Made by a program: the position numbers and the translations under genes. This document shows, piece after piece, positions 1,369 through 41,202 of a stretch of 64,000 nt of DNA. Within the stretch, counting starts at the first letter, position 1; every line of letters starts with the position of its first letter. The stretch is from an uncultured Oligoflexia bacterium (lineage in GTDB: Bacteria > Bdellovibrionota > Bacteriovoracia > Bacteriovoracales > Bacteriovoracaceae): assembly GCA_913058265.1 (NCBI GenBank), contig CAJXPQ010000012.1, positions 1 to 64,000 on the forward strand. The letters are read 5' to 3'. The notes under the pieces are model-generated. The model searched no databases, was not told where the DNA came from, and was given only the letters and a program-made list of their open reading frames with translations.

Positions 1369-2667
1369 ATGGCGAAGTACAATCCTTTTAATCCTAACTC
1401 TGTTGTTGCACCAAACCTATTTGCTGGAAGAACGAAACAAGTTCTTAAGCTTCTTGAGAAATTAGAGCATGTAAAAAGAGGCATGTCCTCCAGTTTTGTA
1501 TTGCATGGTGATAGAGGGATCGGAAAAACAGCACTGGCCAAACTTATTAAGTATGCAGCAAGTAGCAAAGACCCGGCTCTTCATGACTTGTCATTTATAA
1601 CTTCATACTATTCTGTTGAAAAAGGACAAGATCTCCAATCTGTCTTACAAGCTTCATTAAATTCTCTAACTGATCAATTAGAAACAAGCGTAATAGAGCG
1701 ATTAAGTGAAAGAGTCGGCGGAATATTTAAGGGTGGAAAATTTGCATTTGGAGCTTTCTCTGTCGAGCTTGACAGTAAAGATACACAAGTAAAACAACAG
1801 CAAATATTAAAAGACCAGATTGTCTCTGCCCTTACCAATATAATAAAGGGTAGTGATGAGGCTGCAACAGGTGAGAATAGTAAAGGCAACGATGGTGTAC
1901 TCATTATTATTGATGAAATTCATAATTTATCAGACCTTAAGGGTGCAGCTCAAGTTCTTAGATCAATCGCAACAACACTAGACGTAAATGGATTTGGTAA
2001 AATTTCATTTATGGTGATTGGTTATACTGAATCAATTCAGGACTTTTTTGCAGGCGACCCTTCTGCTAAAAGACATTTTGACCCAATAGAATTAACAATT
2101 ATGCCAATTGATGAGGCTGCTCTGATCCTTACAAAAGGTCTTGATGAAGCTGAAGTTAAATATGATGCCAAAGAAATAGTTAATTATGTTGCACAAACAG
2201 GAGGGTATCCTCATTCAATACAGTTACTGGGCCACAATGTACTTTCTGTTGACCCATCAAGTGACAACATAACAACTTCTCAGTGGGATTCAGCAATACT
2301 AAAAACAGCATTCGACCTTCAGCAGAAAGATTTTTCAAGTTTATATGACTTTACTGGAAAACAAACTTTAAGAGAAAACCTAATGGATGTACTAGCAATA
2401 GCATCACGCCCCCTAACTAAACAAGAAGCCAAAGAGATGTGTTCAGGCAGGAATATCTATCAAGGAACTGTACTCGGAGAACTGAAGAAAATTGGTGCCG
2501 TTAAAGAAAATAAAGATACTGGAGAACTAACCCTACAGTCTTTACTGTTCAGAAGTGCTATAATGATGAAAATCTTTAGCCAAAAAAGCAAAGATGAACA
2601 CATTCTTAAAACAATAGATTTCAACACAACATTAGAGGCTAAAAAGACGTCACTCCTGGGTAGCTAA
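1369..2667 (+). CDS. AAA-family ATPase (AAA_16/Orc1-Cdc6-like)
   Basis: A 432-residue P-loop ATPase. Walker A is GDRGIGKT at about residues 47-54 and Walker B with a DE pair is IIIDEIH at about 179-185. A polar stretch FMVIGYTES about 30 residues later looks like sensor 1. The N-terminus YNPFNPN...LFAGRTKQV resembles the start of AAA_16 or Orc1/Cdc6-like ATPases, where FxGR precedes Walker A. The C-terminal 100 residues look like a winged helix. The gene starts at ATG 1369 behind CTGGA. It is divergent from the nuclease gene, and its stop overlaps the stop of the convergent HTH gene by 4 bp. ATPase-nuclease pairs are common in anti-phage systems, but the role here is inferred from position. 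Confidence 0.65.
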   Translation: MAKYNPFNPNSVVAPNLFAGRTKQVLKLLEKLEHVKRGMSSSFVLHGDRGIGKTALAKLIKYAASSKDPALHDLSFITSYYSVEKGQDLQSVLQASLNSLTDQLETSVIERLSERVGGIFKGGKFAFGAFSVELDSKDTQVKQQQILKDQIVSALTNIIKGSDEAATGENSKGNDGVLIIIDEIHNLSDLKGAAQVLRSIATTLDVNGFGKISFMVIGYTESIQDFFAGDPSAKRHFDPIELTIMPIDEAALILTKGLDEAEVKYDAKEIVNYVAQTGGYPHSIQLLGHNVLSVDPSSDNITTSQWDSAILKTAFDLQQKDFSSLYDFTGKQTLRENLMDVLAIASRPLTKQEAKEMCSGRNIYQGTVLGELKKIGAVKENKDTGELTLQSLLFRSAIMMKIFSQKSKDEHILKTIDFNTTLEAKKTSLLGS

Positions 2668-2972
2668 TCTAAAATACCTAAGCGGTTCAGAATTTGGTGT
2701 ATTGACTTAGCATGCCACTTTCCGTTCCGACTTTTAGTTGGAATACTCATTGAGTTAAAAATATCGGCTATCTTCCAATAGGAAAACCCCTTGTCCCTCA
2801 GTTCTCTCATTTTAGTTATATTTTCTAACTCTCTCTTATGCTCGACCTCTTGCTTATGAATATATTTAGCACCATAAGCCACTCCTCTTTTCCTGATGCG
2901 ATTAGAGCCAACTTCCCTTACTGAAATATCAAAAAACTTTAAATACTTCAGAATAGTTGTCCTGGCGGTCAC
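2664..2972 (-). CDS. Helix-turn-helix protein fragment, recombinase-like
   Basis: The C-terminal part MRELRDKGFSYWKIADIFN followed by IPTKSRNGKWHAKSI and QIL matches the helical DNA-binding module after the catalytic domain of serine recombinases and related HTH proteins. The only usable start is GTG at 2972. The open frame continues upstream to about 3134, and a second HTH (LTCEEIAKEFVTARTTI) straddles the GTG, so the predicted start cuts a domain in half. No ATG, GTG or TTG exists further upstream. This is probably a remnant that lost its 5' end, overlapped by a candidate small RNA on the other strand. Its stop overlaps the ATPase stop by 4 bp. Confidence 0.5.
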   Translation of the reverse strand: MTARTTILKYLKFFDISVREVGSNRIRKRGVAYGAKYIHKQEVEHKRELENITKMRELRDKGFSYWKIADIFNSMSIPTKSRNGKWHAKSIHQILNRLGILD

Positions 2973-3075
2973 AAACTCTTTAGCTATCTCTTCACAGGTT
3001 AATACCTCGACAATGTATTTCTGGTGTAAAAGTTCCCTGTTTTGATATAAAGGAACTACTGGATACTCAATAATA

Positions 3076-3104
3076 TTGACAAGTTCGAGCTGGCGGTCTA
3101 CTTT
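3076..3104 (+). promoter_or_regulatory. Candidate sigma-70 promoter for a small RNA
   Basis: A perfect -35 hexamer TTGACA at 3076-3081 is followed after exactly 17 bp by TACTTT at 3099-3104, a weak -10. Transcription would start near 3111, directly before a hairpin series that ends in a terminator. No coding gene lies downstream on this strand. Confidence 0.4.
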
Positions 3105-3110
3105 ACTCGC

Positions 3111-3200
3111 AGATGGTGGGAGACCACCCCATTTTTACATTAAGCTTCTTCGGAAGATTAAGATAGAAGAAGCCCTCGTTTAACCCACTTGGGCTTTTTT
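3111..3200 (+). ncRNA. Candidate structured small RNA
   Basis: About 90 nt with three successive hairpins. The first is GGTGG/CCACC closed by a GAGA tetraloop (3115-3128). The second has a nine-pair stem with one mismatch closed by a TTCG tetraloop (3140-3161). The third is AAGCCC/GGGCTT with a 15-nt loop, followed by a T run ending at 3200, which acts as a terminator. Stable GNRA and UUCG loops, a promoter-like sequence at the right distance and a terminal T run together suggest an independent small RNA. It matches no RNA family I recognise. It is antisense to the 5' end of the open frame of the HTH fragment. Apart from this, 2973-3278 holds only that open frame. Confidence 0.4.
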
Positions 3201-3278
3201 GTTTTAGGAGTTCAAAAACAGGAATTATCTGACTACCAAAGAAGAGTATTACTACGTAATCCCAAACTTTAAAAAAAA

Positions 3279-4811
3279 TTATTTCTTTTTATCCTCGGCC
3301 CAAGCACTACTAACTTTAAGTTCTTGCTTAATAAAGTTGTTAAATTCATCAATTTTATTTTCTACAGATGCACATTCCAAAGCTTTGAAATAGTTTTTCT
3401 TTTCACTCTGTCTGATAACTGTCCAGTTGTAACCTGACAACACTAGAATTGAATTCATTAAAAATCTTGAGGTTCGGCCGTTACCATCTGGGAAAGGATG
3501 AATATACACTAAGATGAAATGACCTAGCACTGCTTTGATCCAAGGATTGTCCTCTTCGCTTAAGATTTGTTCATATTTTTCCATCATATCTGCAACAAAT
3601 GAATGGTTCACAGGTGTATGACGCGAGCCTCGAATGAATACAGATTTATTTCGATAACCTGTCAGTAGTGACGCTTTAGCGAGACCAGATTGAACTTTTG
3701 GTGTGAACAATTGTCTATACCAATTTTGAATTTCATTTCCAAGATTGATGTCTTCTACTTTCTTACCGTAATTACTTTTTATAAACTTTTTCACTTCTTG
3801 GAAGGATAAATAGTAACCTTTAGCGGCCAGAGCTGCTTCTTGTTTTTTATCTTCGTCGCTTACCTCTGAATCAAAAGTACCATCTGCTATTTTTTTAATT
3901 AGCTCTTCTGTGACTGCATATCCTTCAATTGATAAGGAGTTATAAGCATCATGAAGGTAAATACTATCGACACGCTCTAGCATGTCTTCAAGCTTAACAC
4001 CAGCGAGATTTGGTGAAACTTCAATTCCCTTTAAGTCACCTTTTAACTTCTTCCAAAGTAACTCCACTCTCGCAATAACTGGTGACTCAATCCTAGAGTT
4101 TGTTAACATTGGAGCTGGTCTATTGAACGGATTTTTAGGCTTAACTGTATACGCTATAAGATCCATATCTTTCTTTATTTGCTCTACAAAATCGTCTTTT
4201 CCTAAGAACTCATATGCACCAGCAATGATATCAGCTTTTACAGGCTGACTATTATCAACGAGATGACTTGTGATCTCTCCCGCATTTTTTATCATACGAA
4301 GAGATAGCTCTGCTTCATTTAGATAATTAACATAAAAATTTTCAGGTACTAACGTTATGGCCCTAGCGAGGCTTATAATATTAAGACCTTTATGTTCTTC
4401 TACCGCTTCAGGAAAGTTCTTTTTATCTTGATAAAACAGAACAGATGTACCAAATGGAAGTTCCATTGTTCGATTTCCACCGCTTCTTAAAATAACAATT
4501 ACTTGCTCAGGGATGCTTGTTGATTCTGTCTTTAAATAGATTGAAGACATTGCACTTAAGCAGTAATCATTATTATACTTTTCACTTAGGTAATAATTTA
4601 TAAACGACCAAAAATTTCCATACCAAAGAGTGCTTTCACCATCATCAGCATCAGGCGTTTTAAGTATGTACCAGCCTTTAATTATCTCACTTAGCCAGTT
4701 CAGCTTTCTTAACCGTCTAAATAGCGTATCAGGCAAGTCAGAGCTTTTAATGATGTTATCTCTCGACTTCTCCTTAGCTAGTTTTAAATCTTCAGCTAAT
4801 TTCTTGTTCAC
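3279..4811 (-). CDS. Fic-domain protein with AbiEi-like N-terminus
   Basis: A 510-residue protein. The C-terminal half is a Fic domain with the full active motif HPFPDGNGRTSR at about residues 438-449, so it should transfer AMP or a similar group to a target protein. The inhibition motif SLSIEG at about 292-297 fits (S/T)xxxE(G/N), which places the autoinhibitory helix before the Fic core (class II). The first 190 residues resemble the winged-helix antitoxin AbiEi of type IV abortive-infection systems, suggesting a regulator and effector in one chain. The start is GTG at 4811 behind AAAGGGA. Directly upstream are 23-bp tandem repeats, probably the binding sites of its own winged helix. No separate AbiEii toxin is present. 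Confidence 0.8.
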   Translation of the reverse strand: MNKKLAEDLKLAKEKSRDNIIKSSDLPDTLFRRLRKLNWLSEIIKGWYILKTPDADDGESTLWYGNFWSFINYYLSEKYNNDYCLSAMSSIYLKTESTSIPEQVIVILRSGGNRTMELPFGTSVLFYQDKKNFPEAVEEHKGLNIISLARAITLVPENFYVNYLNEAELSLRMIKNAGEITSHLVDNSQPVKADIIAGAYEFLGKDDFVEQIKKDMDLIAYTVKPKNPFNRPAPMLTNSRIESPVIARVELLWKKLKGDLKGIEVSPNLAGVKLEDMLERVDSIYLHDAYNSLSIEGYAVTEELIKKIADGTFDSEVSDEDKKQEAALAAKGYYLSFQEVKKFIKSNYGKKVEDINLGNEIQNWYRQLFTPKVQSGLAKASLLTGYRNKSVFIRGSRHTPVNHSFVADMMEKYEQILSEEDNPWIKAVLGHFILVYIHPFPDGNGRTSRFLMNSILVLSGYNWTVIRQSEKKNYFKALECASVENKIDEFNNFIKQELKVSSAWAEDKKK

Positions 4812-4821
4812 TTTATTCCCT

Positions 4822-4919
4822 TTAGATATTTACCCTGATTTGACGTAAATGATTACTCTACTTATCGGTAAATATTTACTCTACTTTAGCGTAAATTTTT
4901 ACTCTATTTAAGAGTAAAA
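4822..4919. repeat. 23-bp tandem operator-like repeats upstream of the Fic gene
   Basis: Units start at 4822, 4845, 4868, 4891 and 4914, exactly 23 bp apart. The core is GTAAATATTTACTCTACTTT; the 4868 unit contains a perfect 12-bp palindrome (GTAAATATTTAC), the 4845 and 4891 units near-palindromes, and the outer units are diverged or partial. The array begins 11 bp upstream of the Fic start codon. AbiEi proteins are known to bind inverted repeats of this length in their own promoter, so autorepression is the likely role. Confidence 0.75.
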
Positions 4920-4936
4920 AAAGACAACAACATCAA

Positions 4937-5202
4937 TAAATTCAAACACTTATTGACGGCGCAAAGCGTAGTACAAGTACTTAGTTTCAGGTAAAAAGGG
5001 GATATTTTTTGATGTTCAAACATGTGTTAGCTAACTTTATGGATGTTTATGACTGTTTTAAGGAATTAACTACATAAAAGAATGCTCTCGGCATATGTGG
5101 AGTCTTTCGACGGACTCATCAAATCAGGCCTAGGACTTGGGATTAATGTGGGAGTTCTCTTTTAGCTGATCAGTAATTAATGTTCTTTAAAGTTTTGTCA
5201 TA
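4937..5202. other. Non-coding stretch without a recognised gene
   Basis: No convincing coding frame on either strand. A short imperfect palindrome with arms GAGTC and GACTC lies around 5099-5118 without a T run. The stretch separates the Fic promoter array from a decayed outer membrane protein gene and looks like eroded DNA. Confidence 0.4.
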
Positions 5203-5702
5203 CTAGAATTTATAGCCGAGATCAATGGAACCTGAAAGTGACTAGTGGTGAGGAAGGTTTAAAGCTGTTTCATCCCCTTCTTGATTTGTATACTCTGGTG
5301 ATGTTCCAAAATTATAAGTAATACCTTTAAGACTAGCACCAAGAGTAAAGTTTTTTACTTTTGCCAGATATCCCACCTGAACTCCAAGTCCAGCGCCCGA
5401 AGCTTTTAAATCTAGCTCCTCAATCTCTTCAGAACTAAATGTCGTTTCTGAATAAGTGAGTATAACACCATTATAGAAGCCTTGTTCATAGTTATTTCAT
5501 CTTCAAAGTCAGACTTGGAATCACTTGGTAACAAGGCACCAAAGTAGAGCGCCGACTGTGATGATATGACTTCACCAATTTCAAGTAAGGTGCCTGGTTT
5601 TTGATCCAGTTCGACTCTACTGTTAATGTGATACCTGTTATCGATAGCAAAGGAAGATGCTGATACAAATAGTACTATAAAGAATGCGATTATATTTTTC
5701 AT
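5203..5702 (-). pseudogene. Frameshifted outer membrane beta-barrel protein
   Basis: The 5' part has a signal peptide (MKNIIAFFIVLFVSASSFA) and about 50 mature residues, then breaks near 5490. In the next frame the sequence continues as YEQGFYNGVILTYSE, then alternating hydrophobic strands such as LGVQVGYLAK and LGASLKGITYNF, up to an in-frame TAG at 5242-5244. After that stop the same frame continues to SIDLGYKF and a stop at 5203, and a terminal aromatic F is the usual end of outer membrane barrels. One indel and one nonsense change therefore interrupt a protein of about 165 residues. Function unknown. The two lesions argue for decay over a single sequencing error. Confidence 0.7.
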
Positions 5703-11760: not shown

Positions 11761-13341
11761 ATGAAATTTGCTATATTTTTATTACTCAGTTTAAACATTA
11801 TTTTTTCATTAGGTGCATCCGCTGATACGAAAGTATTTAAACTAATAAATAATGAAGGGAAAAATTGTACAGCAACATTCTTTAAAAAACAGCAAGAATG
11901 TCACTTGATAACAAATGCTCATTGTATTGCGAACCCTGAGTCTAAGGTTATTGTCAGTGGTGAGTCATTAACTTCTATTAATAGAAAGTCACATTCATTA
12001 AACTTTATAACTAGAAGTACTAAGCAAGAAAGAGAAGCTCGAATAAATTTTGAGAGTTCATTTTTTCAATCTCTCTCGGAACAAAACCTTCAAGTTAAAA
12101 AAATTGATCGTTCTAAGGATTTAGCTGAAATTCAGTTACCCACTGAACTAGTTCAATTATGTCAGACAATGGAAGAGACTAAAATCAAGGAAAGAGTAAG
12201 TAAGCGGATCGAAATTGCTCTTGTTGGATATACAAATCTTAAGAATGAAAATGATCCAACGCCAAGACTTTGGTATACGGATGACACAGTAATCAATGAA
12301 TCAAATCAAATTGAAGTTTATAAAACAGAATACAAAATCATTCCCGCGACCTTAAGTAATCTCGACAGTTTTATTGAAATTCCTAAATTGCCTATGACCT
12401 GGGGACAAAGTGGTGGTGCTGGGGTTAATTCGAATGGAGAATTAGAATGCATGACAACGAGATTACTGATCTCGCAAGACTATAGCTACTGTATTGATAT
12501 AAAAGATATTGCCAATTTTATCGATAGCGACATAAACGACTCTGAAAGCACAGATAAAGATAATAGTACACAACCAGTAGGTGGCAACGGGCCTACAAAC
12601 ACTGGTGGAAACGGACCAACAAATACTGGTGGGAACGGACCAACAAACACTGGTGGGAACGGGCCTACAAATACAGAAGGAAATTGTGGAAAAGGACAAA
12701 TATTTGATTTCTTCCTTGAGCCTAGTGAAGGTATCCCTGTCCTCATTGATGATGCAGAAGTAATTGTACTCGCTATTGGTGGCAACCAAATTGACGGCGA
12801 TGATGACTATAAAACCTTTATAAATACCGGAGAGGTAATTAAAAGAGATGTAGACGGGTATCCAGAAAAGGATATCAGAGACCAGACAATTAAGAATTTA
12901 TCAGGAGTACATATATTTAATAATTCTAGTAAAAGTACGAGCCTTCTGGACCAGAACTTTACCTCGGGTTGGAACAAAGTGGCTAAAAGTGATGTGGGAA
13001 CGACGATAATAACGTTAACCGAAACAGAGTTACAGATTGATATACCTCTGCATGTAAACATGGATATAACAGAGCTTTTACCACCCAGGGTTTCTCCAGA
13101 ACATTCAAAAGAAAGACAGCTTAAATTTGCAATTGAAACAAGCAGTGACAGTAAAACAATTACTCTAAAAACAAGAAACTACTCAATGACTTGTGAAAAC
13201 AAAAACTACTTAAAATTAATCTGTGATGGCGAAAGATATAGCTTCTCACTATCACTAGATAACATAAAAAAAGAAGGTGCTCATTTTAGATTTTTAGAAA
13301 AAAAGAATCATGAAGCCTCATATTTCTACGGAGTTCAATAA
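11761..13341 (+). CDS. Secreted trypsin-like serine protease with GGNGPTNT repeats
   Basis: A 526-residue protein. The signal peptide ends near GASA. Residues 25-260 form a chymotrypsin-fold protease: catalytic His in LITNAHCIAN, Asp in SKDLAEIQL and Ser in WGQSGGAGV. A flexible linker then holds four copies of GGNGPTNT, followed by a C-terminal region of about 220 residues of unknown fold that may bind a substrate or the cell surface. ATG 11761 has TAGGAGA upstream and a sigma-54 promoter just before it. The stop overlaps the start of the next gene (TAATG), so the two are co-translated. Confidence 0.75.
   Translation: MKFAIFLLLSLNIIFSLGASADTKVFKLINNEGKNCTATFFKKQQECHLITNAHCIANPESKVIVSGESLTSINRKSHSLNFITRSTKQEREARINFESSFFQSLSEQNLQVKKIDRSKDLAEIQLPTELVQLCQTMEETKIKERVSKRIEIALVGYTNLKNENDPTPRLWYTDDTVINESNQIEVYKTEYKIIPATLSNLDSFIEIPKLPMTWGQSGGAGVNSNGELECMTTRLLISQDYSYCIDIKDIANFIDSDINDSESTDKDNSTQPVGGNGPTNTGGNGPTNTGGNGPTNTGGNGPTNTEGNCGKGQIFDFFLEPSEGIPVLIDDAEVIVLAIGGNQIDGDDDYKTFINTGEVIKRDVDGYPEKDIRDQTIKNLSGVHIFNNSSKSTSLLDQNFTSGWNKVAKSDVGTTIITLTETELQIDIPLHVNMDITELLPPRVSPEHSKERQLKFAIETSSDSKTITLKTRNYSMTCENKNYLKLICDGERYSFSLSLDNIKKEGAHFRFLEKKNHEASYFYGVQ
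12580..12675 (+). repeat. Four in-frame 24-bp repeats (GGNGPTNT linker)
   Basis: Four tandem 24-bp units encode GGNGPTNT four times between the protease domain and the C-terminal domain; the last unit is slightly diverged. Unit number can change by slippage without breaking the frame, so linker length may vary between strains. Confidence 0.85.
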
Positions 13342-22615: not shown

Positions 22616-22644
22616 TGAAATACATCCTTCTATTCATTTAATTT

Positions 22645-22703
22645 AAATTAAATTAAATTAAATTAAATTAAATTAAATTCTAATTGGATTTTATTTTATT
22701 TTA
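22645..22703. repeat. AAATT x7 pentanucleotide repeat (plus TTTTA x3) in a 5' region
   Basis: Seven perfect AAATT units run from 22645 to 22679; three TTTTA units follow at 22689-22703. The block begins 30 bp upstream of the FecR-domain start codon, where promoter elements or the leader would lie. Short tandem repeats of this kind change length by slippage and can switch promoter strength. Confidence 0.75.
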
Positions 22704-40608: not shown

Positions 40609-41202
40609 CTAGTTTCTTCTTCTTGGTCTTACAACATCTCTTCCTGTTCTTCCGTGTCCTCGACCACCGATTACAACATCTCTTCCTGCTCTACCGTGGT
40701 CTCTACCGTAATCTCTACCGTAGTCTCTACCCATAGTGCTATCAACTACACATTGACCTCGGCTTCCACGTCCACCGTAGTTACCAGCTCTTGATCTAGC
40801 ATTTTGACATTGTCTTCTCGCCTGCATACATGCTTGCTCTTTTGCTTGGTATCTATCTCTTGCTACAGCTGATGCGTAGAATGTTTGAAATGTTCTATGG
40901 CCTCTAGGTCCTGTAAGTCTTGCCGTACATGACATACTTACGTTATTACGATGTCCGTTACCTCTACGTACCTTTTCACATGTTTGGATTGGTGCTCTGT
41001 AGTAACCACCTCTTTTAACCCGCCTACATTGTTGTTTAGCTTCCTGACAAGCATCCTGTCTATCGTATCCATGTCCTCTGAAAACTTCTAAAAGTTTACC
41101 GCGTCCATTTTTAAGTTCTACTTTACACTGTGCAGCTTCAGCTTCTGAGGCTCCTACAGTTATCATTAATGTTAGTGTTAATACTGTTAATAAAGTTTTC
41201 AT
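40609..41202 (-). CDS. Secreted Arg/Gly-rich cysteine-containing protein
   Basis: About 197 residues from ATG 41202 with GGAGGG upstream. The signal peptide ends at AEAA. The mature part has two halves of similar cysteine pattern (QDACQEAKQQCRR and EQACMQARRQCQN), then a very basic tail with repeats such as GRDYGRDYGRDHGR and GRTGRDVV. The strong positive charge and low complexity suggest binding to nucleic acid or polyanions outside the cytoplasm. Unknown family. A near-consensus sigma-54 promoter lies upstream and a terminator follows. Confidence 0.65.
   Translation of the reverse strand: MKTLLTVLTLTLMITVGASEAEAAQCKVELKNGRGKLLEVFRGHGYDRQDACQEAKQQCRRVKRGGYYRAPIQTCEKVRRGNGHRNNVSMSCTARLTGPRGHRTFQTFYASAVARDRYQAKEQACMQARRQCQNARSRAGNYGGRGSRGQCVVDSTMGRDYGRDYGRDHGRAGRDVVIGGRGHGRTGRDVVRPRRRN

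Follow-up and report, generated by a model that had tools for sequence, protein, structure and literature searches.

A row of 23-bp direct repeats immediately upstream of a Fic gene is very probably the switch by which the encoded enzyme controls its own production, since arrays of this kind precede all 104 of the intact homologous genes that were checked, in about ten phyla. The row lies in the window, a stretch of 64,000 nucleotides from an uncultured Oligoflexia bacterium. The reading that we favor, with a probability of roughly 0.8, is a single-gene system in which an AbiEi-Fic protein represses its own gene and is stacked head-to-tail along three to six operators over its own promoter.

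The array and the AbiEi-Fic gene of the window

The putative operator array occupies positions 4822–4918 on the minus strand, the strand of the Fic gene, and comprises about four head-to-tail 23-bp units. Read in the sense of the gene, these are TTTACTCTTAAATAGAGTAAAAA, TTTACGCTAAAGTAGAGTAAATA, TTTACCGATAAGTAGAGTAATCA, and TTTACGTCAAATCAGGGTAAATA. Unit 1 (4822–4844), which adjoins the ribosome binding site, is the most degenerate in sequence, and is followed at an exact 23-bp step by unit 2 (4845–4867), unit 3 (4868–4890), and unit 4 (4891–4913), all on the minus strand. The preliminary description had listed five unit starts at a perfect 23-bp period; the step is exact for the four that begin at 4822, 4845, 4868, and 4891, whereas the element at 4914 is a stub of only 5 bp (GTAAA) that runs into poly-A, giving about 4.2 copies in total. 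The array ends 10 bp upstream of the GTG start codon at 4811, and a probable Shine-Dalgarno sequence, AAGGGA (4817–4822, minus strand), can be read between the two. A search for sigma-70 promoters gave no match in the array region of the window.

The repeats had been described as having a palindromic core, which did not hold. The sequence GTAAATATTTAC is exact in one unit only, that at 4868, and the other units carry GTAAATGATTAC, GTAAATTTTTAC, and TTAGATATTTAC at this place. A palindromic operator was rejected for the family as a whole, as the palindromy of the unit consensus is at the level of shuffled sequences (4.54 versus 4.52 of 7), and above the motif threshold 339 sites were found in the sense orientation versus 60 in antisense. 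The units are thus asymmetric head-to-tail direct repeats, and the palindrome in the core arose by local accident. When up to three mismatches are allowed, a 19-base core of the unit occurs three times in the window compared with 0.07 expected, and no shuffled sequence reached three. In the 3.2-Mb genome this core marks this array only, together with four sites at three mismatches, compared with 12 for a reversed control pattern; the genome scan thus showed no core sites above the reversed control that would indicate a regulon elsewhere. Other repeats in the window are four 24-bp tandem repeats within a protease-like gene that encode a GGNGPTNT linker (12580–12671), a simple repeat (TTAAA)8 (22638–22679), and 3.6 copies of the 12-bp unit CTCTACCGTAGT (40689–40731).

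The gene behind the array (3279–4811, minus strand, GTG start) encodes a protein of 510 aa that matches the Pfam Fic family (E 1.2e-13) and is modeled by AF2 with a pLDDT of 92.5. The GTG start aligns with, and is thereby supported by, the ATG of the closest relative (L103, with a protein 70% identical), which retains the repeat register of the window array in the alignment. The AbiEi-like N-terminal region, residues 1–232 (4116–4811, minus strand), consists of a winged helix (approximately residues 2–50) and a domain corresponding to the C-terminal domain of AbiEi (approximately 60–217). When this region was modeled alone the pLDDT was 95.5, and the top matches of the model in a Foldseek comparison with the PDB were AbiEi of Streptococcus agalactiae (6y8q, E 3e-5), followed by Rv2827c (1zel, E 3e-3), both at probability 1.0. 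The alignments span 223–258 columns, nearly the whole query, at low TM-scores of 0.32–0.49, perhaps because the hinge that joins the two domains differs. At the sequence level, the AbiEi models in Pfam recovered none of 67 members above cut-off and one of 67 at E 0.05, and the PADLOC AbiEi models recovered one of 67 (E 2e-3). An hhalign comparison with AbiEi_4 proteins gave E 8e-4 at 25% probability, colinear over 118 columns, whereas the Fic domain, used as a control, gave E 0.34. As sequence similarity remains below the Pfam cut-offs and the TM-scores are low, homology to AbiEi rests on the order of the folds and on weak profile signals. The earlier suggestion of an AbiEi-like wing on a Fic protein is therefore borne out by Foldseek and hhalign, with the likeness covering both AbiEi domains, and the first ~230 residues are predicted to fold like a whole two-domain AbiEi antitoxin. 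No clear standalone version of the N-terminal domain was found in 291 Bdellovibrionota genomes or in plasmids, where one partial match, over residues 23–81, was to a hypothetical gene of Bacteroides finegoldii.

The Fic catalytic motif HPFPDGNGRTSR spans residues 438–449 (3465–3500, minus strand) and conforms to HxFx(D/E)GNGRxxR, with His-438, Asp-442 to Arg-446, and Arg-449 invariant in 67 full-length homologues. N-terminal to it lies the class II inhibitory motif SLSIEG, residues 292–297 (3921–3938, minus strand), which conforms to (S/T)xxxE(G/N); Ser-292, Leu-293, Ser-294, Ile-295, and Glu-296 are invariant in the same homologues and Gly-297 is conserved in at least 90% of them. The first match of the protein in a library of solved structures is human FICD. 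Every one of the 67 scanned members matches the SoFic model of PADLOC in its Fic part (best E 3e-28), whereas the SoFic equivalog NF046030 of NCBIfam gave 36.3 bits over residues 400–508 against a cut-off of 550 bits. The enzyme would AMPylate a cellular target. Phage defense is a plausible role of the family, as the PADLOC matches of the Fic domain are to SoFic and candidate defense families and Sofic is an abortive-infection AMPylator (PMC12249575). The AbiEi-like winged helix and the Fic domain are encoded in a single open reading frame of 510 aa, which confirms that a toxin-type enzyme and a predicted DNA-binding domain share one chain.

No neighboring gene family is common to more than five of 88 loci, making this a one-gene module in which a conserved partner is lacking. 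No AbiEii nucleotidyltransferase toxin adjoins the fusion gene in an operon, and in the window the neighbors are a DpnII/MboI-type restriction endonuclease, an AAA ATPase, and a resolvase-like helix-turn-helix protein. These genes lie beyond the Fic gene at 282–2972, where the nuclease matches the PADLOC Aga helical-REase model (E 7e-27) and the resolvase-like protein is truncated, and together they look like a small defense or mobile island.

Repeat arrays across the family and in control genes

The family sample comprised a same-phylum relative, plasmid-borne members, and 80 members on genome contigs, out of ~570 relatives found. The genome-contig members are 35–42% identical to the query over their full length and by record title belong to Proteobacteria, Bacteroidota, Verrucomicrobia, Chlamydiae, Lentisphaerae, Planctomycetes, Armatimonadetes, Acidobacteria, Chlorobiota, and Desulfuromonadaceae/Geobacteraceae. 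The sample was chosen by similarity to the window protein and includes near-duplicates, so that close relatives are favored and distant members under-sampled. In each case the 200 bp before the start codon were scanned for the lag between 12 and 45 bp with the best direct-repeat match.

Absence of repeats from other AbiEi-Fic fusions would have spoken against the original proposal; instead, tandem arrays were found before every one of the 104 intact fusions, whether chromosomal, plasmid-borne, or on viral contigs, and 101 of these genes had their strongest lag at 23 or 24 bp. In the first set the best lag was 23 or 24 bp for 87 of 90 fusions, compared with 21 of 376 unrelated open reading frames from the same loci, and a score of at least 22/36 at a lag of 22–25 bp was reached by 80 of 90 fusions and one of 376 controls. 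All five further Bdellovibrionota members and all nine previously unused members on viral contigs likewise had a lag of 23 or 24 bp. The three exceptions in lag (L066, L072, and L076) do have arrays, and are accounted for by an assembly break, an odd start codon, or an array situated further upstream. Genes with either half of the protein alone behaved as background: a best lag of 23/24 bp was seen for none of 20 Bdellovibrionota Fic genes without the AbiEi part, for one of 15 such genes on viral contigs (at background score), and for two of 29 AbiEi_4 genes without Fic (both at background score). The array therefore belongs to the combination of AbiEi and Fic.

Several loci merit separate mention. 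One member without winged helix and without array (G118, L108) is 5'-truncated and therefore uninformative. A divergent Fic relative with a different N terminus (L145, a 507-aa open reading frame on the reverse strand) has no scored array; its N terminus appears AbiEi-like by eye with no profile match, only two copies of TTTTATAGGA lie upstream, 23 bp apart, and it could be an early branch of the AbiEi-Fic family. In Agrobacterium tumefaciens plasmid pAt1D1460 (L011, 3869–3983) the array adjoins an annotated Fic start that lies upstream of the usual start of the family, and the annotated codon is probably mis-set. In Aminobacter plasmid pSR7 (L009) a 373-aa Fic gene without AbiEi part (2535–3656) lies directly before the fusion (3932–5470), and a 382-aa neighbor in another locus (L055) is similar to it.

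A motif model of the arrays comprises ~313 sites at 95 loci, with the consensus CA[TC]AA[AT]AAc[AC]TA[GA]TAAtt..., and in a split-half check the motif transferred poorly in one half. Starting a motif search from two seeds led only to an A-rich solution, which was dropped. Sites are spaced by 24 bp in 150 pairs and by 23 bp in 50 pairs, the end of the last site lies a median of 16 bp from the start codon, and most arrays have three to six units, with a range of about two to six. A Sphingobium-type array, for example, has the unit CACAATAACCTAATAAT. Promoter-like matches are slightly enriched in the upstream regions of the family (35% versus 23%). The period of 23 or 24 bp maps to the protein tree with six changes compared with a shuffled mean of 28.9 (93-row tree), and the similarity of units tracks that of the proteins in both the 23- and the 24-bp group, being reached by 0 of 300 permutations in a Mantel test. 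Within the 24-bp group unit similarity follows the N-terminal domain beyond the Fic domain (partial correlation 0.34 versus 0.04), whereas in the 23-bp group it tracks the N-terminal domain no better than the Fic domain.

Two further ideas about the units were rejected. A superperiod of 46/48 bp arising from alternating A and B units, suggested for the window by TRF and by L005 and L087, did not prove general, as neighboring units are as identical as next-neighboring ones (p 0.39); an A-B-A-B order is visible upstream of the Fic start in L087 and L061 and in L005 (reverse strand) and is not family-wide. Resemblance of the units to the published abiE site was likewise discarded, for TTTACnCTAC is shared with IR2, yet at p 0.41. 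Scoring the family motif on the abiE promoter gave p 0.03, on one strand only.

Proposed autoregulation and alternative explanations

In the proposed mechanism the AbiEi-Fic protein would itself be the ligand of the array, and its binding would repress transcription. The AbiEi-like region of each chain would recognize one asymmetric unit of ~23 bp, with three to six such units placed head-to-tail and without gaps over the core promoter and the leader of the gene's own transcript, and accumulating protein would fill the array and turn its own transcription off. This shut-off would keep a potentially toxic AMP-transferase scarce, and the built-in class II inhibitory helix may serve as a second brake. 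That the spacing does not depart from 23 or 24 bp suggests that neighboring chains touch on the array. The direct-repeat array is cis-only, gene-specific, and clade-locked, it covers the leader of the gene, and the gene product has a DNA-binding region of AbiEi type; negative autoregulation by head-to-tail occupancy is the simplest model for all of this. It also fits precedent, as the unit length agrees with the 23 bp of known AbiEi sites (PMC3985639) and repression of its own promoter has been shown for the Fic protein CccR (PMC9755527).

The protein might instead bind the array mainly to hold the enzyme in a DNA-tethered stack, where Fic would stay inactive, or have its oligomeric state set, until perturbation of the array, for example by phage or plasmid DNA or by replication, releases or activates it. 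The strict 23/24-bp spacing over deep divergence fits neighbor contacts, the AbiEi-like region has a second domain that is not a winged helix, and the related Sofic is controlled by an antitoxin partner (PMC12249575), and the AbiEi-Fic family has no conserved partner gene. Plain feedback, however, accounts for the position over the leader, and the number of units is variable, and we regard holding as the main function of the array as unlikely. It is also conceivable, if rather doubtful, that an ordered head-to-tail nucleoprotein assembly with a clade-fixed helical step of 23/24 bp represses the gene and at the same time stores Fic inactive, such that loss of the assembly, for example through competition by invading DNA for the array or stripping of the array by it, would release the AMPylating toxin. 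Were such a storage assembly real, a single gene would act as toxin, antitoxin, and sensor, possibly as an anti-phage or plasmid-stability module.

Activation by the protein of its own gene, or control of the RNA leader rather than of transcription, would agree with the lack of a recognized promoter in the array of the window and with the closeness of the array end to the ribosome binding site. However, repression is what was found for the two AbiEi operators tested and for CccR, and the arrays are direct repeats and not hairpins, which renders these modes of control quite improbable. Repeat arrays of 20–25 bp are typical of iterons and centromeres, several members reside on plasmids, and recombinases occur near some of them, all of which would suit a site for another protein (a host regulator, a plasmid partition or replication protein, or a recombinase) that lies beside the gene by chance or through hitch-hiking. 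Such an association is hard to reconcile with 104 of 104 fusions having arrays in replicons of every kind sampled and in about ten phyla, with neighbors that recur in no more than five of 88 loci, with a period that follows the Fic protein tree, and with an array that is unique in its genome, and is very improbable. Tandem repeats do arise by slippage, and copies from one array are more alike (about 66% identity) than copies from different arrays (about 45% where protein identity is low), as a neutral repeat without function would predict; this explanation is refuted by the family-wide conservation of period and place over about ten phyla, with negative controls, and we assign it a negligible probability.

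Significance and comparison with known systems

Autoregulation by the AbiEi-Fic protein thus remains our preferred reading, and what began as an isolated repeat becomes a family rule: every sampled AbiEi-Fic fusion keeps a direct-repeat array of 23/24 bp while the sequence of the unit drifts, from Bdellovibrionota to Bacteroidota, Verrucomicrobia, Chlamydiae, and Proteobacteria. The family would provide about a hundred natural protein-operator pairs for the recognition code of the AbiEi winged helix, in which collinear arrays fix the register. The results suggest a merger of toxin and antitoxin functions, known from two separate systems, into one auto-regulated enzyme without a partner gene, an idea that is open to test in laboratory strains such as Bacteroides thetaiotaomicron, whose p5482 carries a member (L008, 3914–5422). 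Among the papers searched on AbiEi together with Fic, on fusions, and on direct-repeat Fic operators, mostly open-access and, beyond those cited, covered by titles and abstracts, none describes the architecture or its arrays. The combination of an AbiEi fold with a direct-repeat operator array in a presumably auto-repressed Fic protein appears to be new, the published AbiEi operators being inverted and that of CccR palindromic.

Negative autoregulation by AbiEi is established (PMC3985639, PMC7319586). In its repression of abiE it occupies two sites of 23 bp, each bound separately (PMC3985639). The AbiEi of the type IV system AbiE (S. agalactiae, 6y8q) resembles the fusion in its fold over both domains and in the ~23-bp sites before its own gene. 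It is, however, a separate antitoxin beside the AbiEii nucleotidyltransferase, whereas the fusion has Fic in the same chain and no partner gene, and its two 23-bp sites are inverted and 3 bp apart, in contrast to the three to six gapless direct repeats of the fusion. The preliminary description had considered the array longer than the two sites of AbiE, a comparison to be corrected, as the AbiEi homologue Rv2827c already binds four 23-bp repeats in its own promoter (PMC7319586). Rv2827c (Mycobacterium tuberculosis, 1zel), the second structural match, shares with the fusion the AbiEi fold and the 23-bp promoter sites, and differs in having two inverted pairs of sites, with gaps of 13, 4, and 13 bp, and no fused enzyme.

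Among Fic proteins, the closest solved structures of the Fic domain are those of the class II enzyme FICD/HYPE, which has the (T/S)xxxEG and HPFxDGNGR motifs in common with the fusion; FICD, however, resides in the ER of eukaryotes, has TPR repeats, and lacks a DNA-binding part. The anti-phage AMPylator Sofic (SoFic) is alike in its Fic part, but has no AbiEi domain and is regulated instead by AS1, a downstream antitoxin of 47 aa (PMC12249575). CccR of Yersinia pseudotuberculosis, which acts on its promoter through its own helix-turn-helix (PMC9755527), likewise combines a class II Fic enzyme and a DNA-binding domain in one chain. In CccR, a secreted T6SS effector unlike the fusion, the helix-turn-helix is C-terminal and the operator is a single 46-nt palindrome with 10-bp arms and a 26-bp spacer, whereas the fusion has an N-terminal winged helix and an array of direct repeats.
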